Below are positions 9,531 to 43,054 of a stretch of 64,000 nucleotides of DNA, in pieces; position 1 is the stretch's first letter, and each line of letters starts with the position of its first letter. Under the pieces are notes generated by a model that was not told the DNA's origin, did no database searches, and worked only from the letters and a program-made list of their open reading frames with translations. Origin of the DNA: Salinibacterium sp. ZJ70 (GTDB lineage Bacteria; Actinomycetota; Actinomycetes; Actinomycetales; Microbacteriaceae); contig NZ_CP061770.1 in NCBI RefSeq assembly GCF_011751865.2, positions 1,302,001 through 1,366,000 on the forward strand. The letters run 5' to 3'. A program made the position numbers and the translations under genes.

Positions 9531-9580
9531 GTCTGAACTTCAACTTCAACCTGAAGGTCAGCTTCGCGAGAAGTTCAGAC
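9531..9580 (+). promoter_or_regulatory. Long dyad in the leader of the second merR gene
   Basis: GTCTGAACTT (9531-9540) and AAGTTCAGAC (9571-9580) are perfect 10-bp inverted copies. Between them lie a second hairpin, CTTC-GCGA-GAAG (9562-9573), and a CTTCAA-N7-CTGAAG dyad. Either an RNA hairpin just before the AGGAGG at 9584 or a protein operator is possible. Confidence 0.55.
9538..9556 (+). promoter_or_regulatory. Candidate FtsR operator, site 1
   Basis: CTTCAA (9538-9543), a seven-base spacer and CTGAAG (9551-9556) match the 19-bp dyads found before ftsZ and divIVA. It lies directly downstream of ftsR and 41 bases before the second merR gene. Confidence 0.6.
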
Positions 9581-9597
9581 GAAGGAGGACGGTCGGG

Positions 9598-10167
9598 ATG
9601 AGCGACATGAACGAACACGGCAGCGCGGCGAACGCGCTGGGTTCAGGACCGCGCTACGACCTCGGCCTGCTCTTCACCGACGGGCTCCCCGACCTCGACG
9701 CCGACGCGGGCTACCGCGGCACCGTCGCGGCCCGCGCCGCCGGCATCAGCTACCGCCAGCTCGACTACTGGGCCCGCACCGGACTCGTCGAGCCCACCGT
9801 CCGCGGTGCGGCTGGCTCCGGTTCGCAGCGCCTCTACGGCTTCCGCGACATTCTCGTGCTCAAGCTCGTCAAGCGCCTCCTCGACACCGGCATCTCGCTG
9901 CAGCAGATCCGCACCGCCATCAACCAGCTGCGCGAGGCGGGCGTCAGAGACCTCGCCCAGACGACGCTCATGTCCGACGGCGCGAGCGTCTACCTGTGCA
10001 CCTCGGACGACGAGGTCATCGACCTCGTGAGCCGCGGTCAGGGCGTCTTCGGCATCGCCGTCGGCAAGGTGCTGCGCGAGGTCGAGACGAGCCTCGTCGA
10101 GCTCGAGACCGCGACGGTCGACCCGTCCGACGAACTGGCGGCTCGCCGCGCCAAGCGCGCGAGCTGA
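9598..10167 (+). CDS. Second MerR-family transcriptional regulator (Rv1830-like)
   Basis: 189 residues from ATG 9598, which follows AGGAGG at 9584. The MerR winged helix is GYRGTVAARAAGISYRQLDY then WARTGLVEPTVRGAAGSGSQRLYGFRDIL, with a C-terminal helix pair (LVKRLLDTGISLQQIRTAI) and a small effector-like domain ending in charged residues. In mycobacteria a bifunctional nuclease gene (Rv1829) lies between the two merR genes; here it is absent and the gap is a structured leader instead. Role inferred: control of growth or division genes alongside FtsR. An upstream in-frame extension exists but has no start with a ribosome-binding site and overlaps the regulatory dyads. Confidence 0.85.
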   Translation: MSDMNEHGSAANALGSGPRYDLGLLFTDGLPDLDADAGYRGTVAARAAGISYRQLDYWARTGLVEPTVRGAAGSGSQRLYGFRDILVLKLVKRLLDTGISLQQIRTAINQLREAGVRDLAQTTLMSDGASVYLCTSDDEVIDLVSRGQGVFGIAVGKVLREVETSLVELETATVDPSDELAARRAKRAS

Positions 10168-10246
10168 CGAACTCCGCGCGCGGCCCGTCTCAGGACGGGC
10201 CATTCGCATATCCGGGCGCCTGCTCGGCAACCGGCCGCCCGACCCC

Positions 10247-10490
10247 GTTGTGCAGGAACCCCGATCGGTTGTGCAGGAACCCCGACCCCGTTGCGCAGGA
10301 ACCCCGATCGGTTGTGCAGGAACCCCGATCGGTTATGCAGGAACATCCGGATGCGGTCAAGTCGGCAGGGTTGATTCGCGTAGGCGAACCCCGGATGAAC
10401 AGCGCGTCTCCTGCATAACCGCAAACCGTTCCTGCATAACCGCAAACCGTTCCTGCATAACCGCAAGCCGGTCCTGCGTAACGGGGACGG
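10247..10490. repeat. Array of 21-bp repeats in two opposite orientations
   Basis: Five forward units begin at 10247, 10268, 10290, 10311 and 10332 (core GTTRYGCAGGAAC, period 21-22). After a 57-base centre, four reverse units begin at 10410, 10431, 10452 and 10473 (core CCTGCRTAAC, period exactly 21). CATCCGG at 10344 and CCGGATG at 10391 extend the dyad inwards. The gene-free stretch 10168-10530 holds nothing else recognisable. One unit is 22 bases, which breaks any reading frame, so it is not coding. The spacing equals two helical turns, placing all cores on one DNA face. Confidence 0.85.
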
Positions 10491-10530
10491 GCCGGGGGAG
10501 ACGGGAACCGCCGGGAGCGGGGCGCGGGCC

Positions 10531-11337
10531 TCAGTTGGAGGGCTGGATCTCGCTGATGCGCGACGTGCGCAGCACGCGCTCAAGCAGCAGATCGAAGTTG
10601 TGCGCCATCTCCTGCGCGCCCTCGCCGGGCCAGACATGCAGGGGCTTCGCAGCACCCTGCGCCTGCTGCAGCGAGGTGCGCTCCGGCAGCTGAGGGGCCA
10701 GGACGAGCGGCCCGAACATGTCGCGCAGCTCCTTGATGCGGAACTGGTGCTCGAGCGACTGCACGCGGGCGCGGTTCACCACGATGCCGAGCGGCTGCAG
10801 ACGCGGCGAGATGCCGCGGCGGATCTCCTCGATGGCACGCAGCGCGCGGTCGGCGGCAGCCACCGAGAACAGGCCGGGCTCCGTCACGACGGCGACACGA
10901 TCAGATGCAGCCCACGCGGTGCGGGTGAGGGCGTTGAGACTCGGCGCGCAGTCGATGAGCACGAGCTCGTACTCGTTCTCGAGGTGGGCGAGCGCCTCCT
11001 CGAGCTTCCAGATGTCGCGGATCGACGGGTGCGGTCCGTCGAAGTTGATCGCCGACGGCGACCCGATGAGAACGTCGATCTTGCCGGCGCGGCCGCGCGT
11101 CCAACCCGACGGGGCGATCGCCGAGCGCACGATCTTCTCCTTCGGAGACGCGAGCACATCGGCGATGTTGAGGTGTCCGGCGACGTCGATATCCATGCCG
11201 GTCGACACATCGGACTGCGGATCGAGGTCGACCACGAGTGTCGAGACACCTCGAGCGAACGCCGCGGACGCCAATCCGAGCGTCACGGTGGTCTTTCCCA
11301 CGCCCCCCTTGAGGGAGCTGACGCTGAGCACATGCAC
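10531..11337 (-). CDS. Orphan ParA/MinD-family ATPase
   Basis: 268 residues from GTG 11337. The deviant Walker A motif KGGVGKTT is at residues 10-17, followed by LVVDLDPQSDVS (Walker A') and ELVLIDCAPSLNALTR (Walker B), the hallmarks of ParA-type partition ATPases. The C-terminal part has QFRIKELRDMFG and PLVLAPQLPERTSLQQA. No parB is adjacent, so it may position some other cargo. It is divergent from pyruvate carboxylase; an upstream in-frame extension would read antisense into that gene and is rejected. Its 3' end faces the 21-bp array. Confidence 0.87.
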   Translation of the reverse strand: MHVLSVSSLKGGVGKTTVTLGLASAAFARGVSTLVVDLDPQSDVSTGMDIDVAGHLNIADVLASPKEKIVRSAIAPSGWTRGRAGKIDVLIGSPSAINFDGPHPSIRDIWKLEEALAHLENEYELVLIDCAPSLNALTRTAWAASDRVAVVTEPGLFSVAAADRALRAIEEIRRGISPRLQPLGIVVNRARVQSLEHQFRIKELRDMFGPLVLAPQLPERTSLQQAQGAAKPLHVWPGEGAQEMAHNFDLLLERVLRTSRISEIQPSN

Positions 11338-11419
11338 GAGAGAGGAGCCTACCTTTACTAGTCTGGGAGAAGCCAAACCCCCTTTTCTCACGCTGGTGAT
11401 CCCGGCGGGAAGGACACCT

Positions 11420-14400
11420 ATGTTCTCGAAGATCCTGGTCGCCAACCGTGGAGAGATCGCAATTCGTGCCTTCCGAGCGGCCTATGAGCTGGGCGCGAAG
11501 ACGGTCGCTGTGTACCCCTGGGAGGACCGCAACTCGCTCCACCGCCAGAAGGCGGACGAGGCGTACCTCATCGGCGAGAAGGGTCACCCGGTGCGGGCGT
11601 ACCTCGACGTCTCGGAGATCATCCGCGTCGCCAAGGAAGCTGGCGCAGACGCGATCTACCCCGGCTACGGATTCCTGTCCGAGAACCCCGAACTCGCCCA
11701 GGCTGCCGCTGAGAACGGCATCACGTTCATCGGCCCCGGCAGCGATGTGCTCGAGATGGCGGGCAACAAGGTCACGGCGAAGGAGCGCGCGATCGCCGCG
11801 GGCGTCCCCGTGCTCAAGTCCACCCCGGCGACGACCGACATCGACGAGCTGGTCCGCGGTGCGGATGAGATCGGCTTCCCGGTCTTCGCGAAGGCCGTCG
11901 CCGGCGGCGGCGGCCGCGGCATGCGCCGCGTCGACACGCGCGAGGAGCTGCGTCCCGCACTCGAGGCGGCGATGCGCGAAGCCGACAGCGCCTTCGGCGA
12001 CCCGACGATGTTCGTCGAGCAGGCGGTCGTGCGTCCGCGTCACATCGAGGTGCAGATCCTCGCCGACGGCACGGGCGAGACGGTGCACCTGTTCGAGCGC
12101 GACTGCTCGGTGCAGCGCCGCCACCAGAAGGTCATCGAGATCGCCCCCGCGCCGAACCTCGACGAGGCGACCCGCCAGGCCCTCTACCGCGATGCCATCG
12201 CGTTCGCGAAGTCGATCGGCTACGTCAACGCCGGCACGGTCGAGTTCCTCCTCGACACGGCGGGTGAGCGCGCTGGCCAGCACGTGTTCATCGAGATGAA
12301 CCCGCGCATCCAGGTCGAGCACACGGTGACCGAGGAGGTCACGGATGTCGACCTGGTGCAGTCGCAGATGCTCATCGCGTCGGGCTCGACGCTCGCCGAA
12401 CTGGGGCTCGCGCAGGAGCAGATCCACCTGCGCGGTGCCGCTCTGCAGTGCCGCATCACCACGGAGGACCCGTCGCAGGGCTTCCGCCCCGACACCGGCA
12501 AGATCACGACCTACCGCTCGCCGGGTGGAGGCGGCGTGCGACTGGACGGCGGAACGATCGCCGCGGGTGCGCAGATCAGCCCTCACTTCGACTCGATGCT
12601 CGCCAAGATGACGTGCCGTGGCCGCGACTTCCCGGCCGCCGTCGCGCGCGCCCGTCGCGGACTCGCCGAGTTCCGCATCCGCGGCGTCGCCACGAACATC
12701 CCGTTCCTGCAGGCCGTTCTCGATGACCCCGCGTTCGTCGCGGGAGACGTGGCCACCTCGTTCATCGAGGAGCGCCCCGAGCTGCTCACCGGCCGCGTGT
12801 CCCGCGACCGTGGCACGAAGATCCTCAACTGGCTCGCGGATGTCACCGTCAACCAGCCGAACGGCGACGGGGGAGCGGCGATCGATCCCGCGACCAAGCT
12901 GCCCGTGGTCGACCTCACCCTGCCTGCCCCGAACGGCTCGCGTCAGCGTCTGCTCGAGCTCGGCCCCGTCGGCTTCGCGGCCGCCCTGCGCGAGCAGAAG
13001 GCCCTCGCCGTCACCGACACGACCTTCCGTGACGCCCACCAGTCGCTTCTGGCGACGCGTGTGCGCACCAAGGACCTCGTGGCCGTCATGCCGCACGTCG
13101 CGCGTCTCACGCCCGAGCTGCTCTCTGTCGAGGCCTGGGGCGGCGCGACGTACGACGTCGCACTGCGGTTCCTCGGCGAAGACCCGTGGGAGCGTCTCGC
13201 GAAGATGCGCGAGGCTCTGCCGAACGTGGCCATCCAGATGCTCCTGCGCGGGCGCAACACGGTCGGCTACACGCCGTACCCGACCGAGGTGACCGAGGCC
13301 TTCGTGCGGGAGGCCGCGGCGACCGGCGTCGACATCTTCCGCATCTTCGACGCGCTCAACGATGTCGACCAGATGCGTCCCGCGATCGACGCCGTGCTCG
13401 CCACCGGGTCGACCGTCGCCGAGGTGGCGCTCTGCTACACGGGCGACCTGCTCGACCCCGCCGAGGACCTCTACACGCTCGACTACTACCTCCGCCTCGC
13501 GGAGCAGATCGTCGACGCGGGTGCGCACATCCTCGCGATCAAGGACATGGCGGGCCTGCTGCGCGCAGGCGCGGCTGAGAAGCTCGTCGCGGCCCTCCGT
13601 GAGCGCTTCGACCTCCCCGTCCACGTGCACACGCACGACACCGCGGGCGGCCAGCTCGCGACCCTCCTCGCGGCGGCCCGTGCGGGCGCCGACGCGGTCG
13701 ATGCCGCCAGCGCCCCGATGGCCGGAACCACGAGCCAGCCGTCGCTCTCGGCGCTCATCGCCGCCACCGCGCACACCGATCTCGACACCGGCATCTCGCT
13801 CGACGCAGCGAGCGACCTCGAGCCGTACTGGGAGGCTGTGCGCCGCGCCTACAAGCCGTTCGAGTCGGGCCTGCCCGGCCCCACCGGTCGCGTGTACCGC
13901 CACGAGATTCCGGGCGGTCAGCTGTCGAATCTGCGTCAGCAGGCGATCGCGCTCGGGCTCGGCGACCAGTTCGAGAAGGTGGAGGACTGGTACGCCGCGG
14001 CGAACCGCATCCTCGGCCGCCCCACGAAGGTCACGCCCTCGTCGAAGGTCGTCGGCGACCTCGCTCTGCAGCTCGCGGCGACGAACGCTGACCCGCTCGA
14101 CTTCGAGCAGAACCCTGACAAGTACGACATCCCGGACTCGGTGATCGGCTTCATGGCGGGCGAGCTCGGCGACCTGCCGGGTGGCTGGCCGGAGCCTTTC
14201 CGCACGAAGGTGCTCGCGGGACGCACGGTGAAGATCGGTGTGGAGGACATCTCCGCCGAAGATCGTGCCGCGCTCGAAGGCGACGACTCCGATGCCCGTC
14301 GCGCCACGCTCAACCGCCTCCTGTTCGCGGCGCCGACGCGTCAGTACCTCGAGGTGCGCGAGCAGTACGGCGACCTGTCCAACCTCGACACCATCGACTA

Positions 14401-14821
14401 CCTGTACGGCCTGAAGCAGGGCATCGAGCACACCGTTCACATCGGCCCCGGTGTCAGCCTCTTCGTGGGTCTCGAGGCGATCGGCGAGGCCGACGACAAG
14501 GGCATGCGCACTGTCATGGCGACCCTCAACGGCCAGCTTCGCCCCGTGTTCGTGCGCGACCGCAGCATCTCGGTGCAGGTGGCAGCCGCCGAGAAGGCGG
14601 ACACCTCCAAGCCCGGCCATGTCGCGGCGCCGTTCTCGGGTGTCGTGACGCTCAAGGTCGGCGAAGGCGACGCCATCGAGGTCGGCCAGCCGGTCGCGAC
14701 GATCGAGGCGATGAAGATGGAGGCAGCGATCACGTCGCCTGTCGCCGGTCGCATCGTGCGCCTCGCAATCCCTTCCACGCAGCAGGTGGACGCCGGGGAT
14801 CTGCTCGTCGTCGTCGAGTAG
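11420..14821 (+). CDS. pyc: Pyruvate carboxylase
   Basis: A full-length 1133-residue single-chain enzyme that makes oxaloacetate from pyruvate, bicarbonate and ATP for the TCA cycle. Domains in order: biotin carboxylase (MFSKILVANRGEIAIRAF at the start, ATP-grasp FAKAVAGGGGRGMR, HIEVQILAD), carboxyltransferase (DTTFRDAHQSLLATR near residue 535, metal-binding HVHTHDTAG), and biotinyl carrier domain with the biotinylated lysine in AMKMEA near the C-terminus. ATG 11420 is preceded by GGGAAGGA. In-frame sequence upstream reads antisense through the ParA gene and is not part of it. The next gene begins ten bases after the stop. Confidence 0.97.
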   Translation: MFSKILVANRGEIAIRAFRAAYELGAKTVAVYPWEDRNSLHRQKADEAYLIGEKGHPVRAYLDVSEIIRVAKEAGADAIYPGYGFLSENPELAQAAAENGITFIGPGSDVLEMAGNKVTAKERAIAAGVPVLKSTPATTDIDELVRGADEIGFPVFAKAVAGGGGRGMRRVDTREELRPALEAAMREADSAFGDPTMFVEQAVVRPRHIEVQILADGTGETVHLFERDCSVQRRHQKVIEIAPAPNLDEATRQALYRDAIAFAKSIGYVNAGTVEFLLDTAGERAGQHVFIEMNPRIQVEHTVTEEVTDVDLVQSQMLIASGSTLAELGLAQEQIHLRGAALQCRITTEDPSQGFRPDTGKITTYRSPGGGGVRLDGGTIAAGAQISPHFDSMLAKMTCRGRDFPAAVARARRGLAEFRIRGVATNIPFLQAVLDDPAFVAGDVATSFIEERPELLTGRVSRDRGTKILNWLADVTVNQPNGDGGAAIDPATKLPVVDLTLPAPNGSRQRLLELGPVGFAAALREQKALAVTDTTFRDAHQSLLATRVRTKDLVAVMPHVARLTPELLSVEAWGGATYDVALRFLGEDPWERLAKMREALPNVAIQMLLRGRNTVGYTPYPTEVTEAFVREAAATGVDIFRIFDALNDVDQMRPAIDAVLATGSTVAEVALCYTGDLLDPAEDLYTLDYYLRLAEQIVDAGAHILAIKDMAGLLRAGAAEKLVAALRERFDLPVHVHTHDTAGGQLATLLAAARAGADAVDAASAPMAGTTSQPSLSALIAATAHTDLDTGISLDAASDLEPYWEAVRRAYKPFESGLPGPTGRVYRHEIPGGQLSNLRQQAIALGLGDQFEKVEDWYAAANRILGRPTKVTPSSKVVGDLALQLAATNADPLDFEQNPDKYDIPDSVIGFMAGELGDLPGGWPEPFRTKVLAGRTVKIGVEDISAEDRAALEGDDSDARRATLNRLLFAAPTRQYLEVREQYGDLSNLDTIDYLYGLKQGIEHTVHIGPGVSLFVGLEAIGEADDKGMRTVMATLNGQLRPVFVRDRSISVQVAAAEKADTSKPGHVAAPFSGVVTLKVGEGDAIEVGQPVATIEAMKMEAAITSPVAGRIVRLAIPSTQQVDAGDLLVVVE

Positions 14822-14830
14822 GGTTCGCTC

Positions 14831-16111
14831 ATGGTTCGCATGACGTCCGGGCACGATCCCGCCGCTGACGACGCACCTGATGCCTCGTCGACGCCGCTTC
14901 CCGAGAACGTCTCCTTCACGATCGAGTTGCCGGCGACACCGCACGAGACGCCCGAGGAGGAGGTGCAGGTGACGCTCCACGAGAACGTCGTCGCGCCCGC
15001 CGAGATCGGGGCGATGGGGGAGGGCACGACGACGATCCATGTCGTGCCCGAGCTCGTGCAGACACCCGTTCCCCTCGAAGCCGAATCGGCGGCTGAGGAG
15101 CTCGTGCCGCTTCCCGCCGACGACGACATGTACTCCCGGCGGGAGCGCAAGCGCGGCCCGGTGCAGACACCGGAGCCTGCGACGATGCTCACGGCGGATC
15201 GCCTGCTCGAGCCCAAGCGCACCAAGGTGGCGCCCGAGGGTGCCTGGCCGGCATTCGTCTATGCCGCGACGCTGCACCTTGTGAACCTCGGCGACTCGCC
15301 GAAGGTGCGCGAGCGCAAGGCGCTCGAGGCGCGCATCGCGAAGCGCTTCGAAGGCGGCACGCGCTTCGTGCCGATCCTCACGCGCAAGGGCGGCGTCGGC
15401 AAGACGACCATCACGGCGCTGCTCGGCATGGCGCTGTCGGATGTGCGTGAGGACCGCGTGATCGCGGTCGACGCGAACCCCGACCGCGGCACGCTCTCGG
15501 AGCGCGTGGCACGGCAGACCCGCTCGACCGTGCGGGACATCGTCACCCACGCGCCCGCGATCAAGGACTTCAGCGAGCTGTCGCAGCACGTCTCCCGCGA
15601 CGAGACCCGCCTCGACGTCCTCGCGTCCGACACGGATCCGCTGCTCTCGGAGGCCTTCGACGAGAACGATTACAACGTGGTCGCCGACCTCGTGTCGCGC
15701 TACTACTCGATCGTCCTCACCGACTGCGGCACGGGCATCGTGCACTCCGTGATGCGAGCGACCCTGCAGCGTGCCGACGGCATCGTGGTCGTCTCGGGCG
15801 GCAGCGTCGATGAGGCGCGTCTGGCATCCGAGACCCTCACCTGGCTCGAAGCCAACGACTACGGCGACCTCGTGAAGAACGCCGTCGTCGCCATCAACAC
15901 GGCGACGCACGGAACCAACCTCGTCAACCTCGATGAGATCGAGGCGCACTTCGCCTCGCGCGTGCGCGCTGTCCTGCGGATGCCCTACGACCCCGAGCTC
16001 GCCGCGGGATCCGTGGTGCGCTGGAATCGCCTCAAGCCCTTCACCCGGACCTCCGCGCGTGAGCTCGCCGCTCTCGTGATGGACGGCCTGCCGACAGTAC
16101 GGAACGCATGA
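14831..16111 (+). CDS. MinD/ParA-like ATPase with long acidic N-terminus
   Basis: A 426-residue protein in two parts. Residues 1-150 are acidic, proline-rich and probably disordered (for example ETPEEEVQVTLHENVVAP). The C-terminal ATPase domain has KGGVGKTT at 186-193, VIAVDANPDRGTLSERV and IVLTDCGTGIVHSVMRAT. The layout resembles actinobacterial MinD-like proteins related to secretion-associated EspI, but no secretion genes are near. It follows pyc by ten bases and its stop overlaps the def ATG, so pyc, this gene and def look like one operon. Function unknown beyond being an ATP-driven switch. Confidence 0.82.
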   Translation: MVRMTSGHDPAADDAPDASSTPLPENVSFTIELPATPHETPEEEVQVTLHENVVAPAEIGAMGEGTTTIHVVPELVQTPVPLEAESAAEELVPLPADDDMYSRRERKRGPVQTPEPATMLTADRLLEPKRTKVAPEGAWPAFVYAATLHLVNLGDSPKVRERKALEARIAKRFEGGTRFVPILTRKGGVGKTTITALLGMALSDVREDRVIAVDANPDRGTLSERVARQTRSTVRDIVTHAPAIKDFSELSQHVSRDETRLDVLASDTDPLLSEAFDENDYNVVADLVSRYYSIVLTDCGTGIVHSVMRATLQRADGIVVVSGGSVDEARLASETLTWLEANDYGDLVKNAVVAINTATHGTNLVNLDEIEAHFASRVRAVLRMPYDPELAAGSVVRWNRLKPFTRTSARELAALVMDGLPTVRNA

Positions 16112-16605
16112 CCGAGCGCCAGATCCGTCTCTTCGGAGACCCCGTCCTCCGTTCGAAGACCGACCCGATCACCGACCCCGGCGACGCGCGTGTGCGCGCT
16201 CTCGCCGAGGACCTCGTCGACACCGTCCGTCTTCCCGGCCGAGCCGGCGTCGCGGCGACCCAGATCGGCGTGGGGCTCCGGGCCTTCAGCGTCAACATCG
16301 AAGGCGACATCGCCTACGTGCTGAACCCGGTGCTGGAGGTAGCGGGGGAGCCGTCGCTCGTCGATGAGGGATGCCTCTCGGTGCCGGGCTTCTATTTCCC
16401 GCGCATGCGCCACCCGTGGGCGCGTGTGACGGGCGTCGACGTCGACGGCAACGAGGTGGTGCTCGAGGGCGAGGGTCTCATGGCTCAGGCGCTTCAGCAT
16501 GAGTGCGACCATCTCGACGGCAAGCTGTACATCGAAGGCCTCGAGCCGGAGACCAAGCGCGAGGCGATGCGCGCCGTGCGCCAGGCGGACTGGTTCAAGG
16601 TCTGA
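16108..16605 (+). CDS. def: Peptide deformylase
   Basis: 165 residues with all three metal/active-site motifs: GVAATQIG (residues 47-54), EGCLSVPG (87-94) and HECDHLDG (131-138). It removes the formyl group from the N-terminal methionine of new proteins. The segment GFYFPRMRHPWARV between motifs 2 and 3 is typical of the actinobacterial type. The ATGA overlap with the MinD-like gene suggests coupled translation. It ends at a strong bidirectional terminator. Confidence 0.96.
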   Translation: MTERQIRLFGDPVLRSKTDPITDPGDARVRALAEDLVDTVRLPGRAGVAATQIGVGLRAFSVNIEGDIAYVLNPVLEVAGEPSLVDEGCLSVPGFYFPRMRHPWARVTGVDVDGNEVVLEGEGLMAQALQHECDHLDGKLYIEGLEPETKREAMRAVRQADWFKV

Positions 16606-16643
16606 GCTGAGCCGGGATCCCTGAGCCGCGATCCACGTATGCG

Positions 16644-16678
16644 AAAGGCCCCACCTGCGCGAAGCAGGTGGGGCCTTT
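16644..16678. terminator. Bidirectional intrinsic terminator (def / fadD)
   Basis: A perfect 15-bp stem (AAAGGCCCCACCTGC with its complement) and a five-base loop lie between convergent def and fadD. The A- and T-ended arms suit termination in both directions. Confidence 0.85.
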
Positions 16679-16692
16679 CGCTGGGTTCGGCG

Positions 16693-18519
16693 TCAGCCCT
16701 GCACCGAGATGCCCTCGGTTGCGGGGGAGCCCGAGTAGAGCGCCTCGATCTCGGCGGCGAAGTCCGTCACGATGACGCTGCGCTTGATCGACATCTTGGG
16801 CGTGAGGTGGCCGCTGGCCTCGGTGAACTCGATGGGCAGGATCTTGAACTTGCGGATCGACTCGGCGCGCGAGACGCGAGCGTTCGCGGCGTCGATGGCG
16901 CGCTGCACCTCGGCGACGATCTTCGGGTGCACGGCGGCCTCCTCGAGGCTCATGCTGCCGTCTTCGTCGTTGTTGTTCAGCCACACGGGGAGCATCTCGG
17001 AGTCGAGCGTGATGAGCGCCGAGATGAACGGCCGCTGGTCGCCCACGACGACGATCTGACCGACGACGGGGTTCGCGCGAACCGGGTCCTCGAGCGCCGC
17101 GGGTGCCACGTTCTTGCCGCCCGCGGTGACGAGGATCTCCTTCTTGCGGCCGGTGATCGTGAGGTAGCCCTCGTCGTCGAGCGATCCGATGTCGCCCGTG
17201 TGGAACCAGTCGCCCGAGAAGACCTCAGCGGTGGCCTCAGGGTTGTTCCAGTAGCCCGCGAAGACATCGATGCCCTTGACGAGCACTTCGCCGTCGTCGG
17301 CGATCTTCACGCCCACACCCGGAAGCGGCGCGCCGACCGTGCCGATCTTGAACTTCTGCACGAGGTTGACCGTCGCGGGCGCCGTGGTCTCGGTGAGGCC
17401 GTAGCCTTCGAGGACCTTGAGGTCGAGGCTGCGGAAGAAGTGTCCGAGGCGCAGACCCAGCGGAGCGGAGCCCGACACCGCATAGCGCACGTTGCCGCCC
17501 ATCGCCGCCTTCAGCTTGCTCAGCACGAGCTTGTCGAAGAGCGCGAACTGCAGCTTGAGCCCGAGCGGAACCTTGCCCGTGTCGAGAGCCTTCGAGTACG
17601 CGATCGCCACGTCGGCGGCCTTGTTGAAGATCTTCTCCTTGCCGCCGGCAGCGGCCTTCTGCTGGGCGGAGTTGTAGACCTTCTCGAACACACGCGGCAC
17701 CGCGAGGAGGAAGGTCGGCTTGAAGCTGCCGAGCGAGGGGAGGAGCTGCTTGGTGTCGGCCTGGTGGCCGACCTTCACACCCGCGTGCACGGACAGGATC
17801 GAGATGAAGCGCGCGAACACGTGCGCGGTCGTCACGAACAGGAGCGTCGATGAGCCGGGTGCTACTACGTCCTTCATCGCGACTGCCGCGTTGCGCGACA
17901 GCTCCACGAAGTTGGAGTGCGTGAGGATGCAGCCCTTGGGCTTGCCGGTCGAGCCCGACGTGTAGATGAGAGTGGCGAGGTCGGAGCCCTTGGGGGCGCT
18001 GCGACGCGTCTCGACCTCATCGTCGGAGACGCCGGCACCGCTCGCGGACAGGTTCGCGATGTCGTCCTCGTGGAGCTTCCACACCTTCGTGACCGCGGGA
18101 ACCTCAGCGGCGATCTCCTCGAAGCGGGAGAGCTGGTCGGCGTTCTCGATGATGATCGCCGTGGCACCCGCGTCATTGAGGATGTGGGCGATCTGAGAGG
18201 GTGCAGAGGTCTCGTAGACGGGCACGAGCACCGCACCGGCGAACCAGGTGGCGAAGTCGACGAGGGTCCACTCGTAGCGCGTGCGGCAGATGAAGCCGAT
18301 CTTCTCGCCGGGCTGGATGCCTGCGGCGATGAGGCCCTTGGCGAGTGCGATGACCTGGCTGTGGAATTCGCGCGTCGTCACGTCCTGCCAGCCGCCGTCG
18401 GCGGTGGGCGTGGCGAAGAGGGGCGCATCCGGCGTCTCGGCGAGACGATTGAGCAGCAGATCGGTGGTGTTCGCGTCGGGCTCGGCTGGGACGACGGGCG
18501 GGACATATATCTCGTTCAC
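16693..18519 (-). CDS. Long-chain fatty acid-CoA ligase (FadD15-like)
   Basis: 608 residues from GTG 18519, which has GAAGGAG upstream; an earlier GTG at 18564 lacks this. AMP-binding family motifs: TLIYTSGSTGKPKGCILTH (P-loop), GYGLTETTAP, FHTGDIGSLDDEGYLTITGR and KEILVTAGGKN. It activates long-chain fatty acids to acyl-AMP and then acyl-CoA at the membrane. The gene order fadD, ROK kinase, plsC, aroG matches the conserved neighbourhood of mycobacterial FadD15. It is divergent from the ROK kinase gene and convergent with def. Confidence 0.93.
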   Translation of the reverse strand: MNEIYVPPVVPAEPDANTTDLLLNRLAETPDAPLFATPTADGGWQDVTTREFHSQVIALAKGLIAAGIQPGEKIGFICRTRYEWTLVDFATWFAGAVLVPVYETSAPSQIAHILNDAGATAIIIENADQLSRFEEIAAEVPAVTKVWKLHEDDIANLSASGAGVSDDEVETRRSAPKGSDLATLIYTSGSTGKPKGCILTHSNFVELSRNAAVAMKDVVAPGSSTLLFVTTAHVFARFISILSVHAGVKVGHQADTKQLLPSLGSFKPTFLLAVPRVFEKVYNSAQQKAAAGGKEKIFNKAADVAIAYSKALDTGKVPLGLKLQFALFDKLVLSKLKAAMGGNVRYAVSGSAPLGLRLGHFFRSLDLKVLEGYGLTETTAPATVNLVQKFKIGTVGAPLPGVGVKIADDGEVLVKGIDVFAGYWNNPEATAEVFSGDWFHTGDIGSLDDEGYLTITGRKKEILVTAGGKNVAPAALEDPVRANPVVGQIVVVGDQRPFISALITLDSEMLPVWLNNNDEDGSMSLEEAAVHPKIVAEVQRAIDAANARVSRAESIRKFKILPIEFTEASGHLTPKMSIKRSVIVTDFAAEIEALYSGSPATEGISVQG

Positions 18520-18609
18520 GGCAGCTCCTTCGGTACCTGTGATGGTTTCGGGCGTTTCTTCCACTGTAGTGGGAGCACAAGAATTCGATCGAGGAACGGT
18601 ACGGCTGAC

Positions 18610-18615
18610 TAGACT
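18610..18615 (+). promoter_or_regulatory. -10-like hexamer TAGACT, leaderless ROK kinase start
   Basis: TAGACT ends eight bases before GTG 18624 with no ribosome-binding site, suggesting a leaderless transcript. Confidence 0.42.
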
Positions 18616-18623
18616 CGTCGCTC

Positions 18624-19574: not shown

Positions 19575-19616
19575 CGTCACGCACGGCGAGCGTAGGATCG
19601 ACACCCGGAGGCCCTG

Positions 19617-20315: not shown

Positions 20316-20419
20316 GGGTCTCGCGCGTCTGCGGCGTGATACTCGCTCGGCTAGGCTGAGTCTTTGGGGTGACGAGCTGTCACCCCGATCGAGACACACC
20401 CCAGAGCAGAGGAATTTCC

Positions 20420-21790: not shown

Positions 21791-21801
21791 GCCGATGTGA
21801 C

Positions 21802-21838: not shown

Positions 21839-21848
21839 ATCATCAGGC

Positions 21849-27602: not shown

Positions 27603-27607
27603 CCCCT

Positions 27608-29831: not shown

Positions 29832-29845
29832 CGGCAGGAGAGTTC

Positions 29846-31612: not shown

Positions 31613-31649
31613 CGCCTGCCCCTGATCCGAATCACGAGGTGAGACACGC

Positions 31650-35730: not shown

Positions 35731-36895
35731 CGCGCGCGGCGGCACGACCGCTGTCGTGAGACTGCGGCGGATCTTCGCCGCCGACTCGCCCGACTATGTG
35801 CTGCTGCTCGGCACGACCGTCTTCCTCGTGATCTTCGGTCTCGTGATGGTGCTGTCGTCGTCGTCGATCGAGTCGCGTGTGTCGGATGGCGACTTCTTCG
35901 CACGTGCCACCCGGCAGGCGGTGCTCGCCGCGATCGGCCTGCCGCTCATGCTCATCGTGTCGCGGGCACCGCTGATCTTCTGGAAGCGCTGGGCGGGCCC
36001 TGCGATGATCACCGCGGCGATCCTGCAGTTCCTCGTCGTCGCGACTCCGCTGGGCTCCGGTGACTACAACCGCAACTGGCTCCGGTTCGGCGGTGTGAGC
36101 TTCCAGCCGTCGGAGGCCGTGAAGCTCGCGCTCATCATCTGGCTCGCACTCGTGCTGACGACGGTCATCCGAACGGCGCCGCAGGGGCGGCGCCTTGCCC
36201 TGCAGATCATCGTGTTCGCCGGCGGGCCGCTCTTCCTCGTGCTCATCGGCAACGACCTCGGAACCGCCATCATCCTCTTCTCGATGATCATCGGCGCGCT
36301 CTTCTTCGCGGGTGTGAAGCTGCGCTACATCGGCAGCGTTCTCGCGATCGTCGCGATCGCGGCCCTCATCCTCGTGCAGGTGAGCGAGTCGCGCAGCGGC
36401 CGCTTCGCTGCCTGGCTCAGTGGCTGCGCCGACCCGGTCGGCTACGCCGACCAGTGCTACCAGACCCTCCACGGCTGGCAGGCGCTCGCGAACGGCGGCA
36501 TCTTCGGGGTGGGCCTCGGCAACTCGGCGTCGAAGTGGAACTGGCTGCCCGAGGCTGAGACGGACTTCATCTACGCCATCATCGGCGAGGAGCTCGGGCT
36601 TGTCGGTGCTGTGCTCGTGATCATCCTGTTCGCCGTGCTCGCCGTGTGCTTCGTGCGCATCATCCGCCGCCAGACCGACCCGTTCGTCAAGATCGCCACG
36701 TCGGTTGCGATGGTCTGGATCATCGGCCAGGCGTTCGTGAACATCGCCGTCGTGCTGGGGCTCCTTCCCGTGCTCGGCGTCCCCCTTCCGTTCATCTCCG
36801 CGGGCGGTTCCTCGCTCGTGACGACCCTGGTGGCGATCGGCATCGTGCTGTCCTTCGCCCGACATGACCCTCGAGCTGTGGAGTCCGTGCAGTGA
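35672..36895 (+). CDS. ftsW: Lipid II polymerase / division protein FtsW
   Basis: 407 residues of the SEDS family with about ten transmembrane segments. Key motifs: NRNWLRFGGVSFQPSEAVKL, NGGIFGVGLGNSASKWNWLPEAETDFIYA (split: GGIFGVGLGNS, then LPEAETDFIYA) and PLPFISAGGSSLV. It polymerises glycan strands with FtsI. The proline-rich N-terminus is translated within the murD 3' end; GTG 35672 gives a 59-base overlap. A later GTG near 35756 (residue 29) would shorten the overlap but both are possible. Confidence 0.94.
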   Translation: MTTTRPPHPPSSPGPAQPSDARGGTTAVVRLRRIFAADSPDYVLLLGTTVFLVIFGLVMVLSSSSIESRVSDGDFFARATRQAVLAAIGLPLMLIVSRAPLIFWKRWAGPAMITAAILQFLVVATPLGSGDYNRNWLRFGGVSFQPSEAVKLALIIWLALVLTTVIRTAPQGRRLALQIIVFAGGPLFLVLIGNDLGTAIILFSMIIGALFFAGVKLRYIGSVLAIVAIAALILVQVSESRSGRFAAWLSGCADPVGYADQCYQTLHGWQALANGGIFGVGLGNSASKWNWLPEAETDFIYAIIGEELGLVGAVLVIILFAVLAVCFVRIIRRQTDPFVKIATSVAMVWIIGQAFVNIAVVLGLLPVLGVPLPFISAGGSSLVTTLVAIGIVLSFARHDPRAVESVQ

Positions 36896-37986
36896 CTGTG
36901 TATCTGATGGCAGGTGGCGGGACCGCCGGTCACGTCAACCCTCTGCTCGCGACAGCCGATCGCCTGCGCGAGCTGGAGCCGGATGCGGAGGTGCTCGTGC
37001 TCGGCACAGCCGAGGGCCTCGAAGCGCGTCTCGTCCCGCTGCGCGGCTACGAGCTGGTCACGGTGCCGAAGCTCCCGTTCCCGCGTCGCGTCAACCTCGA
37101 CGCGACGCGCTTCCCGCTGCGCTGGCGACGCAGCGTCGAGCTCACTCGATCGATCATCCGCGAGCGCGGCGTCGACGTCGTGGTGGGCTTCGGCGGCTAC
37201 GCCTCGGCCCCCGCGTACGCCGCGGCGCACAAGGAAGGCATCCCGCTCGTCATCCATGAGGCGAATGCGCGGCCCGGAATCGCCAACCGCTACGGCGCTC
37301 GCCTCACCCCGTTCGTCGCGACGGTCTTCGCCTCGACTCGCATCCGCCACGGCCGTCTCGTGGGCCTTCCGCTGCGGCGAGAGATCGAGCACCTCGATCG
37401 TTTCGCCGCGCGTCCCGAAGGGCTCGAGCTCTTCGGCCTGCGTGCGGGGATGCCCACGCTGCTCGTGACGGGCGGCTCCACGGGTGCGCGCCGCATCAAC
37501 GAGTCGATCTCGCAGGCGATCGACGCGATCCTCGCATCCGGCTGGCAGGTGCTGCACATCACCGGCAGCCGTTCGCCGGTGCAGGATCCGGGTCTCGATG
37601 GCTACCGGATCATCGAATACTGCGACCGCATGGATCTCGCTCTCGCCGTCGCCGATCTCGCCGTCTCCCGCTCGGGAGCGGCGACGGTGAGCGAGCTCGC
37701 CGCTCTCGGCATCCCCGCGGTGTTCGTGCCGTACGCGGTGGGCAACGGAGAGCAGGCTCTCAACGCGCGTGATGCGGTCGACGCCGGGGGAGCGATGATC
37801 GTCTCTGACGCCGATTTCACCCCCGACTGGGTGCGCACGAAGTTCGTCACCCTCCTCGAGGATCCGGCCCTCATCGCCGACATGGCCGCGCGGATCGCGA
37901 CCACCGGACGCCCCAGTGCGTCGGATGCGATGGTCGAGCTCATCCAGGACGCCCGGCGTTCAGCCGACCGTCCGGCGGAGGGGTAG
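36892..37986 (+). CDS. murG: Lipid II synthase MurG
   Basis: 364 residues, GT-B glycosyltransferase. N-terminal glycine loop [48 protein letters not shown] and [20 protein letters not shown] are diagnostic. It adds GlcNAc to lipid I on the inner membrane face. GTG 36892 overlaps the ftsW stop. Confidence 0.97.
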
Positions 37987-37996
37987 CGTTGTTCGG

Positions 37997-39394
37997 ATGA
38001 TCAAGCCCGACCTCGACCAAGAGCTTCCCGACGAACTCGGCGACGTCCACTTCGTGGGCATCGGCGGATCGGGGATGAGCGGCATCGCGCAGCTCCTGCT
38101 CGATGCCGGTCACCGCGTGACCGGCTCCGACGCGCGCGATTCGGATGCCATCGCCCAGCTGCGCGCCGCGGGTGCGACCATCGCGATCGGCCACGACGCG
38201 GCGAACGTCGGAGACGCCGACACGATGGTGGTCACCGGGGCTCTCTGGCAGGACAACCCCGAGTACCAGCTCGCGCTCTCGGCGGGGATCCCGGTGCTGC
38301 ACCGTTCGCAGGCGCTGCACTGGCTCATCCGCGCCCACCGCACCATCTCGGTCGCCGGCGCCCACGGCAAGACGACGTCGACCGGCATGATCGTCACGGC
38401 CCTGCGCGAGCTCGGCACCGACCCGGGCTTCGTCAACGGCGGCGTCATCGCGGGCTACGGCCGCAGCGCCTCGTACGGCACCGATGACCTCTTCGTCGTC
38501 GAGGCGGACGAGTCGGACGGCTCGTTCCTGCTCTACGACACGGCCGTCGCGCTGATCACGAACGTCGACGCGGACCACCTCGACCACTACGGCTCGCAGC
38601 AGGCCTTCGAGGACGCCTTCGTGACGTTCGCGCAGCAGGCGAGCGAGTTCGTCGTCGCCTCGAGCGACGACCCCGGCACGATCGCCGTCACCGACAGGCT
38701 CGTCGACAAGCGTCTCGTGACCTTCGGCTTCGCCGACGACGCGGACGTGCAGCTGCGCGATGTCGTCGCGGAGGGGCCTGTGTCGTTCACGATCCGGCAT
38801 GCGGGCGTCGACCACGCGGTGCAGCTCGCGATCCCCGGCGCGCACAACGCCATCAACGCGACGGGTGCGTTCGCCGTGCTCGTGAGTCTCGGCTTCGACG
38901 CAGCGGGCATCGTGCGCGGGCTCGAGTCGTTCACGGGAACCGGGCGCCGCTTCGAGCTGCATGGCGAGGTGCGCGGGGTGCGCGTCTACGACGACTACGC
39001 GCACCACCCGACCGAGGTCGAGGCCGCTCTTTCGACCGCTCGCTCGGTCGTGGGTGCCGGCCGCGTCATCGCGATCCACCAGCCGCACCTGTACAGCCGC
39101 ACTCGGATGATGGCGGGAGAGTTCGCCGAGGTCTACGAGCGACTCGCGGACCACACCGTCGTGCTCGATGTGTACGGCGCTCGTGAGGACCCGGAGCCGG
39201 GCGTGACGGGAGCGCTCGTCGCAAACCGTTTCGCCGACGACACCAAGGTCGATTTCGTGCCCGACTGGCAGCAGGCGGCCGAGCGTGTGGCCGAGATCGC
39301 GCGCGAGGGTGACCTCGTCATGACGCTCAGCTGCGGTGACGTCTACCGCATCATCCCGCAGGTGCTCGACGCGCTCGGAGCGGAGCAGGCGTGA
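37997..39394 (+). CDS. murC: UDP-N-acetylmuramate--L-alanine ligase
   Basis: 465 residues from ATG 37997. Start [23 protein letters not shown] loop [29 protein letters not shown] and [11 protein letters not shown] are all family signatures. It adds the first L-Ala to UDP-MurNAc. An in-frame extension to 37916 reads through murG and is rejected. In this cluster murB does not follow. Confidence 0.96.
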
Positions 39395-39407
39395 CGGGAC
39401 AGCGCGC

Positions 39408-40439
39408 GTGAAGCGGCCCGAGGGCTTCGACGCGTCGCCCCCCGCGCCTGAGTCGCCCCCCGACCGCGCGCGGGGGGAGAAGCGCGCTGCCGTCACACGC
39501 CTGCGCGCCACCCGCGAACGTGCTGCCGCGGCGCCCGTCGAGAAGGGGCGAACGGTTCCGGCAGCGGCACCGCGTGCGTCATCCGCGGCGACCGACGATG
39601 TCACGACTGCGCCTGTCGCCGTCGTCCGCCGGCCCGCGGAGCGTCGGCCCCGGGTGTCACCCGAGAAGCAGGCCGTCGCCGAGCTGCGCAGGGCCGAGCG
39701 TGCGCGTCGCCGCGCGGAGAAGCAGGAGCTCCGGCGATTCACCCGCCGTCAGCGACACCGTCGCGCGATGTGGTGGAGCCTCACGGGTGTCGTCGCCGTT
39801 CTCACAGCGCTCATCCTGATCGCCGTGTTCTCACCCCTGCTCGCGCTGCGTGAGGTGCGCGTCGAGGGCACCCAGCGGATCGATCCCGCGCTCGTCGTCG
39901 ATGCGCTCGACGGCCAGCTCGGCACGCCGCTCGCGCTGCTCGACGAGGGGCTCGTCCGCGACGAGCTCGATGCGTTCACGCTCATCCGCAGCTACACGAC
40001 GGAGCTCGCCCCACCCGGCACGCTCATCGTGCGCATCACGGAGCGCACTCCCGTGGGCACGATCATCCGGGGAGCGACCTTCGACCTCGTCGACGCCGCG
40101 GGAGTCGTCATCGAGTCCTCGCCGGAGCGGGTGGCTGGGATGCCCGTCATCCAGGTTCCCGGCGATGATGTGGAGTCGAGGGCGTACGCCTCGATCACCG
40201 AGGTTCTCTTCGCGCTTCCCGCCGACATCCGCGCGCAGGTCGACACGATCGCCGCGTCGACGCGCGACAACGTGACGCTGCAGCTCGCGGGCTCGAATCA
40301 GCGGGTGGAGTGGGGCAGCGCACAGCGGTCCGACCACAAGGCGCGCGTTCTCGCGGCGCTCGTGGCGATCCATGGCGGCGACGGCTCGGGCCTGTACGAC
40401 GTGTCCGCTCCGGGCAGCGCCGTCTTCCGTCGGGACTGA
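39408..40439 (+). CDS. ftsQ: Division protein FtsQ (DivIB family)
   Basis: 343 residues from GTG 39408. A long basic, Ala/Arg-rich cytoplasmic part (1-115), one membrane helix (WWSLTGVVAVLTALILIAVF), a POTRA domain starting LREVRVEGTQRIDPALVV, and the FtsQ beta domain (TERTPVGTIIRGATFDLVD, PVIQVPGD). FtsQ links the early and late divisome. The cytoplasmic part is longer than in E. coli, which is common in actinobacteria. It ends 140 bases before ftsZ, in a gap with a hairpin and promoter elements. Confidence 0.93.
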   Translation: MKRPEGFDASPPAPESPPDRARGEKRAAVTRLRATRERAAAAPVEKGRTVPAAAPRASSAATDDVTTAPVAVVRRPAERRPRVSPEKQAVAELRRAERARRRAEKQELRRFTRRQRHRRAMWWSLTGVVAVLTALILIAVFSPLLALREVRVEGTQRIDPALVVDALDGQLGTPLALLDEGLVRDELDAFTLIRSYTTELAPPGTLIVRITERTPVGTIIRGATFDLVDAAGVVIESSPERVAGMPVIQVPGDDVESRAYASITEVLFALPADIRAQVDTIAASTRDNVTLQLAGSNQRVEWGSAQRSDHKARVLAALVAIHGGDGSGLYDVSAPGSAVFRRD

Positions 40440-40453
40440 GTGCTTCTTCGTTT

Positions 40454-40474
40454 CGCGACACGCGGGGTGTCGCG
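40454..40474 (+). other. Hairpin in ftsQ-ftsZ gap
   Basis: CGCGACAC-GCGGG-GTGTCGCG is a perfect 8-bp stem. There is no T tract, so it could be partial terminator, processing site or operator. A related stem, GCGACACG/CGTGTCGC, lies after dnaE at 49231-49253. Confidence 0.5.
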
Positions 40475-40538
40475 GTCGGAAGCGACGCAATCGCGCCTAG
40501 CGTGAAAGGCATTCAAGAGTACTGAGGAAGACTCCAAA

Positions 40539-40557
40539 CTTCAAGTAGAGGTTGAAG
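40539..40557 (+). promoter_or_regulatory. Candidate FtsR operator, site 2 (ftsZ)
   Basis: CTTCAA (40539-40544), GTAGAGG spacer and TTGAAG (40552-40557): a perfect 6-bp dyad of 19 bp located 22 bases before the ftsZ GTG. It matches the sites near merR (9538) and divIVA (43036). FtsR is known to regulate ftsZ in corynebacteria. Confidence 0.7.
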
Positions 40558-40579
40558 GTTTTCCTCCAGGAGGCCGGAC

Positions 40580-41731
40580 GTGACATCAAACCAGAACTAC
40601 CTCGCCGTCATCAAGGTCGTCGGTATCGGCGGCGGTGGCGTGAACGCGGTGAATCGGATGATCGAACTCGGCCTTCGCGGCGTCGAGTTCATCGCCATCA
40701 ACACCGACGCGCAAGCGCTGCTGATGAGCGACGCCGACGTCAAGCTCGACGTCGGACGTGAACTCACCCGCGGTCTCGGCGCAGGCGCCGACCCCGAGGT
40801 GGGCCGTCGCGCAGCCGAGGACCACGCAGAGGAGATCGAAGAGGCCCTCGCGGGTGCCGACATGGTCTTCGTGACCGCGGGCGAAGGCGGCGGCACGGGC
40901 ACCGGCGGTGCGCCCGTCGTGGCCCGCATCGCCAAGTCGATCGGAGCCCTCACCATCGGCGTCGTCACGAAGCCCTTCGGCTTCGAGGGCAAGCGCCGCC
41001 AGGCGCAGGCCGAGATCGGCGTCGCGACCCTCAAGAACGAGGTCGACACCCTCATCGTCGTCCCCAACGACCGTCTGCTCGAGATCAGCGACCGCGGCAT
41101 CTCCATGCTCGAGGCGTTCGCGACGGCCGACCAGGTGCTCCTCGCCGGCGTACAGGGCATCACCGACCTCATCACGACGCCGGGCCTCATCAACCTCGAC
41201 TTCGCCGACGTGAAGTCGGTCATGCAGGGTGCGGGATCCGCGCTCATGGGCATCGGCTCGAGCCGGGGAGCGGATCGCGCCATCAAGGCCGCCGAACTCG
41301 CCGTCGCGAGCCCGCTGCTCGAGGCCTCGATCGACGGCGCCCACGGCGTGCTTCTCTCGATCCAGGGCGGATCGAATCTCGGCATCTTCGAGATCAACGA
41401 CGCCGCCCGCCTGGTGCAGGAGGCCGTTCACCCCGAAGCGAACATCATCTTCGGTGCGGTCATCGACGACACCCTCGGCGACGAGGTGCGCGTCACCGTC
41501 ATCGCGGCCGGCTTCGACGGGGGAGAGCCCGCCCCCAAGCCCGCCCAGGATCGTCGCAGCAACTTCGTCGACGCCGCGGTCCCCGCGACCGTCGGCGCGT
41601 CGGTCGCGAGCGAGGGCGAGAGTGCCCCTGCTCCGGACGGCTGGGCTCGCGAGCCCGAGCTTCCGGTGGTCGGCGGCCTCGACGAGCTCGAGGACGATGC
41701 CGACCTGGACATCCCCGACTTCCTCAAGTAG
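40580..41731 (+). CDS. ftsZ: Cell division tubulin homologue FtsZ
   Basis: 383 residues. GTP-binding signature [18 protein letters not shown], preceded by [14 protein letters not shown], and the T7 synergy-loop [15 protein letters not shown]. The linker ([16 protein letters not shown]) is short, and the tail [10 protein letters not shown] is the binding peptide for SepF. It polymerises into the division ring. GTG 40580 follows AGGAGG at 40569. The stop overlaps the start of the YggS-like gene. No ftsA is present, as expected in actinobacteria where SepF anchors FtsZ. Confidence 0.98.
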
Positions 41732-42414
41732 TGGCTGTCGAGATCTCACTCGCTGAGCGACTCGCGGCGGTCGACGCCGGGATCGCGGACGCCGCACGTG
41801 CGGCGGATCGCGACCCCGGCGAGATCACGCGCATCGTGGTGACGAAGTTCCATCCGGCGTCTCTCGTGCGCGAGCTCGCGGCCCTCGGTGTGCAGGATGT
41901 CGGCGAGAATCGCCACCAGGAGGCTCAGGCGAAAGCCGCGGAGCTCGCGGACCTCGATCTGCGCTGGCACTTCGTGGGCCAGTTGCAGAGCAACAAGGCG
42001 AAAGCTGTGCGGCGCTACGCCCACGCCATCCATTCGATCGACCGCGCCTCCCTCGTCGACGCACTGCGCGACGAGACGGCTCCCGCGATCGGAGGCCTCA
42101 TCGAGGTCGACCTGTCGGGGCAGCCCGGCCGCGGAGGCGTCGCTCCGGCCGACGTCGATCGACTCGCCGAACACGTGCTCGCGACGCCCGGGATCGAGCT
42201 TCTCGGCGTCATGGCCGTGGCGCCCCTCGGGGAGGAGCCGCGCCCGGCATTCGCCCGCCTGCGAGCCATCTCGGAGCGCGTCCGCGGCCTCGAACCGCGC
42301 GCGACGCTGATCTCCGCCGGCATGTCCGGCGACTACGCCGACGCGATCCTCGAAGGCGCGACACACCTGCGGATCGGCACCGCAATCACAGGAAACCGAC
42401 CCCCGCGCGATTAA
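41731..42414 (+). CDS. YggS/YlmE-family PLP-binding protein
   Basis: 227 residues, a single-domain alanine-racemase-like fold. The PLP lysine sits in RIVVTKFHPASLV, then GVQDVGENRHQEAQAKA, WHFVGQLQSNKAKA and SAGMSGDYADAILEGATHLRIGTAI (split: LISAGMSGDYADAI, THLRIGTAIT). It has no racemase activity in studied members and maintains PLP and amino-acid balance. Its place between ftsZ and sepF is conserved in Gram-positives. GTG 41731 overlaps the ftsZ stop by one base. Confidence 0.93.
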   Translation: MAVEISLAERLAAVDAGIADAARAADRDPGEITRIVVTKFHPASLVRELAALGVQDVGENRHQEAQAKAAELADLDLRWHFVGQLQSNKAKAVRRYAHAIHSIDRASLVDALRDETAPAIGGLIEVDLSGQPGRGGVAPADVDRLAEHVLATPGIELLGVMAVAPLGEEPRPAFARLRAISERVRGLEPRATLISAGMSGDYADAILEGATHLRIGTAITGNRPPRD

Positions 42415-42447
42415 TGTCGGGGTGATCCCAGAACTTCGGAGGACGAC

Positions 42448-42927
42448 ATGGCGAACCCGCTGCGCAAGACGATGGTCTACCTCGGCCTGGCCGACGAGGA
42501 GTACGACGACGCGGTGGCTCCCGAGACGGAGCGCGCGCACACGCCCGCCCCGGCTGCGGCGGAGACGCCCGCTGCCTCGACCCCGCGTCCTGCTCCCGTG
42601 ACGCCGCTGCGCCGTGCGTCGGCACCGCGCACCGCACCCGCGGGGATGAACGAGATCCTCACGGTTCACCCGCGCCACTACAAGGACGCGCAGGCGATCG
42701 CCGAGAGCTTCCGTGAGGGCATCCCGGTCATCATCAACCTGTCCCAGATGAGCGACGCCGACGCGCGCCGTCTGATCGACTTCGCGAGCGGCCTCTCGAT
42801 GGGCCTCTACGGCAAGATCGAGCGCGTCACGAGCAAGGTGTTCCTGCTCTCTCCTGAGCACGTCGCCGTGAGCGGCGAGCAGGCGGAGGCCGAGACCGAG
42901 GTCGAGGCTGGGTTCTTCGACCGCTGA
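42448..42927 (+). CDS. sepF: Cell division protein SepF
   Basis: 159 residues. A short amphipathic N-terminus ([18 protein letters not shown]) for membrane binding, a Pro/Ala linker, then the SepF core: [40 protein letters not shown] and [18 protein letters not shown]. It ties FtsZ to the membrane. ATG 42448 follows CGGAGGA. A perfect palindromic terminator follows; yggT, common after sepF, is not here. Confidence 0.95.
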
Positions 42928-42940
42928 TCCGAGCGAATCG

Positions 42941-42974
42941 AGGCCGGGCGACGCATGCGTCGCCCGGCCTTTTC
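42941..42974 (+). terminator. Perfect palindromic terminator after sepF
   Basis: A 30-bp perfect palindrome with 15-bp arms (AGGCCGGGCGACGCA) followed by TTTT. It ends the ftsZ-yggS-sepF transcript and separates it from divIVA. Confidence 0.9.
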
Positions 42975-43035
42975 GCAACCTCATCTGGGGGCAGTGATCT
43001 TCCAGGCTCTCGGCTGTACTCTGGACAGACGCGAC

Positions 43036-43054
43036 CCTCAAGCTACGACTGAAG
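43036..43054 (+). promoter_or_regulatory. Candidate FtsR operator, site 3 (divIVA)
   Basis: CCTCAA (43036-43041), GCTACGA and CTGAAG (43049-43054) share the spacing of sites 1 and 2 and lie 58 bases before divIVA. Confidence 0.6.

Follow-up and report, generated by a model that had tools for sequence, protein, structure and literature searches.

The 64,000-nucleotide stretch of Salinibacterium sp. ZJ70 DNA considered here (the window; positions 1302001-1366000 of a 2.84-Mb genome in a single contig) contains three inverted repeats of the form CYTCAA-N7-YTGAAG, located in the leaders of ftsZ, divIVA and mcdR, the last being a second MerR-type gene downstream of the MerR-type regulator gene ftsR. 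We consider it probable that these three dyads are operators of FtsR and together form a small division regulon, as the first-pass annotation had proposed. The proposal is supported on three counts: the ftsR gene is present, the dyad and the published FtsR operator agree in register, and at ftsZ its conservation follows that of FtsR. Both binding by FtsR itself and the sign of regulation are what we infer from sequence. Operators of the ftsZ kind have already been published, and the sites at mcdR, divIVA and an M23 peptidase locus outside the window are predicted as new members; a known regulon is thereby extended, and this is not a new kind of system.

The window contains three exact matches to the 19-mer, at 9538-9556, 40539-40557 and 43036-43054, and no others, in agreement with the first-pass annotation, which had also correctly given the distances to the start codons (41 bases to the ATG at 9598, 22 to the GTG at 40580 and 58 to the ATG at 43113) and described the ftsZ copy as a perfect dyad; apart from its spacer, that copy is a perfect palindrome. 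With up to two mismatches there are 17 matches on both strands of the window, against 5.1 expected. The 19-mer alone is nevertheless not selective, because its six exact places in the genome are no excess over control; the three beyond those reported lie in genes that read by eye as pgk and rimM, and within a long open frame according to a crude coding test. The flanks are also informative and are included in a 25-bp pattern, RAVCYTCAAN7TTGARGBTY. At up to two mismatches this pattern yields the three reported dyads only in the window and nothing in 100 shuffles. Genome-wide its best three places are ftsZ (0 mismatches), mcdR (1) and divIVA (1), the sole places with at most one mismatch, while a model of independent bases predicts approximately 0.04 such places, and 0.9 with two mismatches. 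Four places have two mismatches: the leader of an M23 peptidase gene at 199139, two in coding-looking frames, and 334986, which narrowly fails the crude coding test and whose 25 bases reappear in the genus member G005, a recurrence that suggests that this place is coding. Eight of the 40 genome places found at up to three mismatches are non-coding by the crude test (ftsZ, divIVA, the M23 leader, 334986, 682403, 1260434, 1728531 and 2813167). One of these, beyond the window at G000:C1:1260434-1260458 (L335; G000 is the genome under study), is a 3-mismatch dyad with a score of 17.8 from the matrix described below. A regulon as proposed implied a motif in excess over the genome; the 19-mer is no commoner than control, and the 25-bp form stands out at its high-scoring end only.

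A symmetric matrix with a flat spacer was built from 30 sites of eight genus relatives (ftsZ, 6; mcdR, 8; M23 gene, 8; hup, 8), leaving out this genome and every divIVA site, and was applied to the window, the 40 genome places and the relatives' loci. Since those sites trained the matrix, there is some circularity in the genus counts given below for ftsZ, mcdR, the M23 gene and hup, and none in those for divIVA, in the sites of this genome or in any count outside the genus. The three highest scores in the window belong to the reported dyads (33.2 at ftsZ, 25.7 at mcdR and 24.8 at divIVA), with the fourth place at 16.5, and the same three lead among the 40 genome places, where the next reaches 19.7. 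The published ftsZ sites, the FtsR-bound one of Corynebacterium glutamicum and that of Rv1828, score 20.5 each, far above the 99.99% single-site null of at most 10.7, so that a motif derived from the genus only agrees with the one published for ftsZ; the score of the published cop1 site is only 9.8. The 25-bp inverted repeat here lies in the register of the published operator. Named loci totalling 693 kb contain 105 places with a score of at least 15; 83 of these, overlapping hits included, lie no more than 200 bases upstream of ftsZ. Null levels for the named-loci counts and for the ftsZ, mcdR and divIVA leaders come from simple base shuffles.

The identity of the binding protein was approached through the distribution of FtsR. 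The ftsR gene that the first-pass annotation placed at 8745 is confirmed by the NCBIfam model 'transcriptional regulator FtsR' (NF050798; 252.8 bits against a cut-off of 150), and residues 113-227 of the product align with the solved Rv1828 chain 5ydc (E 2.9e-14). In 60 genomes, this one included, ftsZ leaders were scored for a box that exceeds the 99% level of shuffles (10.5), and FtsR was called present at a match with E below 1e-20. The box occurs in 50 of 55 FtsR-bearing genomes (41/46 outside the genus) versus 1 of the 5 in which a full FtsR match is lacking (Fisher p 0.0012; 0/3 and p 0.0018 without two incomplete genomes), counts that are not independent, as two FtsR losses fall in one family, and that address the link at ftsZ only. 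The five genomes without such a full match are G020, G039, G042, G046 and G056. Only G020, which is 82% complete, has an ftsZ box; it also has the M23-gene site, so its ftsR may simply be absent from the assembly. In G039 and G056 garA adjoins mcdR with no ftsR between them, and in G042 the 3 kb before mcdR showed no garA and no ftsR. In the genus member G005 the FtsR match is split into two overlapping pieces (G005:C1:2910422-2911104), probably by a frameshift or assembly error.

The reach of the individual targets differs. At ftsZ, 57 of the 71 named loci (by title mostly from Microbacteriaceae) match at 10 or more of 12 positions. The mcdR site, examined in 48 of the 60 genomes with a 99% null of 10.8 in 300 bases as threshold, is found in 28: all nine genus members, 12/26 elsewhere in the family and 7/13 in other families of the order, at distances from the gene that range from 25 to 271 bases outside the genus. 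At divIVA, eight of nine genus members (7/8 relatives) have the site at the same place and above the 99% null of 12.7. A fourth site, outside the window at G000:C1:199139-199163 (L289, L249), precedes a gene with a Peptidase_M23 domain, the next open frame in this genome having an NLPC_P60 domain; it is kept in 9/9 genus members and in 4 of 12 further genomes scored. In the leaders of genus relatives' hup genes, which encode HU (L261-L268), a dyad lies 144-165 bases before hup in eight of nine members, two copies being degenerate; the site is absent from the genome studied here, and hup was rejected as a target in it. No dyad was seen at 10 or more of 12 positions in the leaders of garA (0/56 loci) or ftsR (0/65 loci), and there is therefore no sign of autoregulation by this motif; the named-loci sets for mcdR, ftsR and garA contain many genomes twice. 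Conservation in relatives, as the regulon proposal anticipated, is thus borne out for ftsZ and mcdR, and for divIVA inside the genus but not outside it: the ftsZ part of the regulon appears old, the mcdR part widespread and the divIVA part genus-specific.

Several observations weigh against an FtsR regulon of this composition. The 25-bp pattern at up to three mismatches has exactly as many genome places as a backwards control (40 each), the 19-mer with one mismatch has fewer (20 forward and 24 reverse versus 38 and 47), and in this genome the exact looser form of the 19-mer gives 3 and 4 versus 6 and 5. FtsR-less genomes are few, with two sharing a family, and five of the 55 FtsR-bearing genomes (G023, G028, G053, G054 and G057) are below threshold at ftsZ. 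The crude frame test puts the mcdR site inside an open frame that extends mcdR upstream; the distance from site to gene, taken modulo 3, is 2,2,2,2,1,1,1,2,2 in the nine genus members, and this variation is evidence against coding. Of the places in the named loci that score at least 15, 22 are not in the ftsZ leader, the best of these at 22.0. The remaining points concern divIVA. Its site is lost in G003, one of the nine genus members, and is present in none of 22 genomes outside the genus, where the best score of 9.6 exceeds the 95% but not the 99% null; only 4 of 79 divIVA loci reach 10 of 12 positions. In addition, the nine peaks of C. glutamicum FtsR obtained by chromatin affinity purification and sequencing do not include divIVA or cg1633 in the available text of that paper (PMC6683498).

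Two of these points, the lack of the site outside the genus and of divIVA among the C. glutamicum peaks, also favour the strongest alternative, namely that FtsR truly acts through the ftsZ and mcdR sites, while at divIVA the match arises by coincidence or reflects a promoter feature. Matrix scores of 15-22 do occur off target, and the best-conserved part of the divIVA leader is a -10 block beside the dyad (CTTGCTACGG, with a majority fraction of 0.97 on average over nine genus members). Since scores of 15-20 are not rare, it is their position, and not score alone, that makes the divIVA sites of relatives (16-21) count. Against coincidence stand the third-best score both in the window and among the 40 genome places, obtained with divIVA excluded from the matrix, and the shared place in 8/9 genus members, where the arms are better kept (0.86) than the spacer (0.67) and the flanks (0.72 and 0.76). 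On balance, we regard this alternative as unlikely.

A second alternative is that the dyad is the operator of McdR and that the mcdR copy is autoregulatory. We call the second MerR gene mcdR because it lies downstream of ftsR, like cg1633 (after a nuclease gene) in C. glutamicum; the label McdR/ResR (Rv1830) comes from this position and not from a family model, with Rv1830/McdR presumably the mycobacterial counterpart. McdR is also MerR-type and has a match in 60/60 relatives at E <= 0.001, weak only in G020 and G046, and mycobacterial McdR is tied to division and predicted to act on wag31, a relative of divIVA (PMC9040748). However, G039, G056 and G042 retain mcdR (41, 43 and 70% identity) although they have neither FtsR nor the ftsZ box, and the dyad shares the register of an experimentally bound FtsR site. 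Moreover, the published mycobacterial McdR motif, AATnACAnnnnTGTnATT (PMC9040748), is different: it has one 3-mismatch place in the window, at 11410, where 1.6 are expected, and was rejected as the identity of the dyads because its matches are no better than chance. The retention of mcdR where FtsR and the ftsZ box are absent, together with the different motif, favours FtsR and disfavours McdR, which we judge quite improbable as the protein that binds the dyad.

If FtsR is the binding protein, a dimer would contact the arms ACCYTCAA and TTGARGGT and leave the 7-bp spacer free. Its predicted targets in the genus are ftsZ, the neighbouring mcdR, divIVA and the M23 hydrolase gene with its NlpC/P60 neighbour. 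Promoter boxes, assigned by eye and by alignment of relatives, put the dyad at different positions in these leaders. It begins 19 bases past the candidate -10 at mcdR and 32 bases past that at ftsZ; at divIVA it is flanked by two candidate -10 boxes, the lower of which is 2 bases away, and in the case of the hydrolase gene it lies approximately 100-125 bases before the start and upstream of a candidate -10 (by eye). A position in the promoter spacer abutting the -10 is the usual one for a MerR activator. Because the divIVA dyad lies between the two -10 boxes and abuts the lower, FtsR is predicted to move divIVA transcription to the lower promoter, whereas it would damp the mcdR promoter and the upstream ftsZ promoter, where the dyad is downstream of the inferred start. 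It is possible that ftsZ has a second start nearer the gene which FtsR activates, as published for C. glutamicum. The site through which FtsR activates ftsZ there has its centre at -73, and the box of Rv1828 falls between -35 and -10 (PMC6683498); the position relative to the inferred start differs here from both, and site position is known to vary. Leader RNA hairpins in place of protein sites on DNA are a far-fetched explanation: the dyads are inverted repeats and two lie downstream of inferred transcription starts, but the divIVA and hydrolase sites are each upstream of a candidate -10, and the loci have the arm sequence in common, not pairing alone.

The ftsZ and mcdR leaders share a further element upstream of the dyad. 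The box GCGACACGC matches the WhiB2 box of mycobacterial mcdR and contains the GACAC box of WhiA. In the window it shows no enrichment, with 5 copies against 4.9 expected. Its core CGACACG is present in 27 of 30 mcdR leaders versus 2 of 30 divIVA leaders and, on the same strand, upstream of ftsZ in 20 of 28 other family members; CGACACGC is found approximately 122 bases before ftsZ in all nine genus members. In the mycobacterial McdR-WhiB2 loop a cGACACGc box likewise precedes mcdR (PMC9040748), as in 27/30 relatives here, although mcdR here also has an FtsR-type dyad. In Streptomyces, a GACAC box goes with most WhiA targets, and ftsZ is one of the targets of WhiA (PMC3781837); in contrast to the dyad, this box is short and asymmetric and belongs to a monomeric protein. 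WhiA/WhiB would thus be a second input where CGACACGC is also upstream, at ftsZ and mcdR.

Table. Genes, FtsR-type dyads (25-bp form), candidate promoter boxes and WhiA/WhiB2-type boxes in the window.
Feature	Position	Strand	Remarks
garA/odhI (FHA-domain protein)	8260..8745	+	ftsR neighbour; Pfam FHA 65.6 bits; NF041660 OdhI 168.9 bits, under cut-off 200
ftsR, MerR-type regulator, proposed dyad binder	8745..9437	+	NCBIfam NF050798 252.8 bits, cut-off 150
GCGACACGC, WhiA/WhiB2-type box upstream of mcdR	9457..9465	+	
candidate mcdR -35 TTGATG	9487..9492	+	17 bases before -10; by eye, alignment
candidate mcdR -10 TACGGT (TACCGT in eight genus relatives)	9510..9515	+	by eye, alignment
candidate FtsR-type dyad, mcdR leader	9535..9559	+	matrix 25.7, rank 2 in window
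mcdR-like second MerR gene (merR2)	9598..10167	+	Pfam MerR_1 56.8 bits
GCGACACGC, WhiA/WhiB2-type box upstream of ftsZ	40455..40463	+	
candidate ftsZ -10 TAGCGT (TACCGT in eight genus relatives)	40498..40503	+	by eye, alignment
candidate FtsR-type dyad, ftsZ leader, perfect arms	40536..40560	+	matrix 33.2, rank 1 in window
ftsZ	40580..41731	+	TIGR00065 406.1 bits, cut-off 295.2
sepF	42448-42927		
candidate upstream divIVA -10 TACTCT (TAATCT in 5/8 genus relatives)	43017..43022	+	by eye
candidate FtsR-type dyad, divIVA leader	43033..43057	+	matrix 24.8, rank 3, divIVA excluded from matrix
candidate downstream divIVA -10 TAGGTG (TACGGT in eight genus relatives)	43060..43065	+	by eye
divIVA (wag31-like)	43113..44201	+	Pfam DivIVA 58.9 bits; NF050102 Wag31 102 bits, under cut-off 260

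By family models and positions, the gene order garA/odhI, ftsR, second MerR gene is as expected of an FtsR locus. It resembles that of C. glutamicum, where a MerR gene also lies downstream of garA-ftsR, except that there is no room here for a nuclease gene between ftsR and the second MerR gene (PMC6683498). An outer inverted repeat, GTCTGAACTTC / GAAGTTCAGAC, at 9531-9541 and 9570-9580 flanks the mcdR dyad; its right arm was not seen in the aligned relatives. In the interval from mcdR to a gene judged ParA-like by eye, units of approximately 21 bases of the GTTGTGCAGGAACCCCGATCG type are arrayed facing inverted copies (10237-10492; 64-base arms, 77% complementary).

Dimerisation of FtsR and its binding at ftsZ have been published for C. 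glutamicum, and the legend of Fig. 6 of the same paper already proposes FtsR boxes at ftsZ of several actinobacteria (PMC6683498). As in C. glutamicum and for Rv1828, the ftsZ leader here has a 25-bp inverted repeat in the same register; unlike there, mcdR (cg1633), divIVA and the M23 gene are predicted targets here and are not named among the nine C. glutamicum peaks in the available text (PMC6683498). No paper joining FtsR with DivIVA was found in a search that left most subscription papers and the 2018 Rv1828 targets outside, and wag31/divIVA does not appear in the available text of the FtsR paper (PMC6683498). Nor was a joint treatment of the FtsR and McdR-WhiB2 circuits found: FtsR and Rv1828 have 0 occurrences in the available text of the McdR-WhiB2 paper (PMC9040748), and the one paper with both Rv1828 and Rv1830 looks unrelated to judge by its title.

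Loss of FtsR in C. glutamicum causes branching and growth defects beyond those explained by ftsZ alone, and further targets have been called for (PMC6683498). The divIVA, cell-wall hydrolase and widespread mcdR sites are named candidates for such targets, and would also link two division circuits, FtsR and McdR-WhiB2. On a wider view, to which we give slightly less than an even chance, FtsR in this genus would bind at ftsZ, divIVA, the M23/NlpC/P60 locus and mcdR, and in most relatives also at the HU gene, coordinating the whole division and growth cycle, with WhiA/WhiB inputs joining at ftsZ and mcdR.

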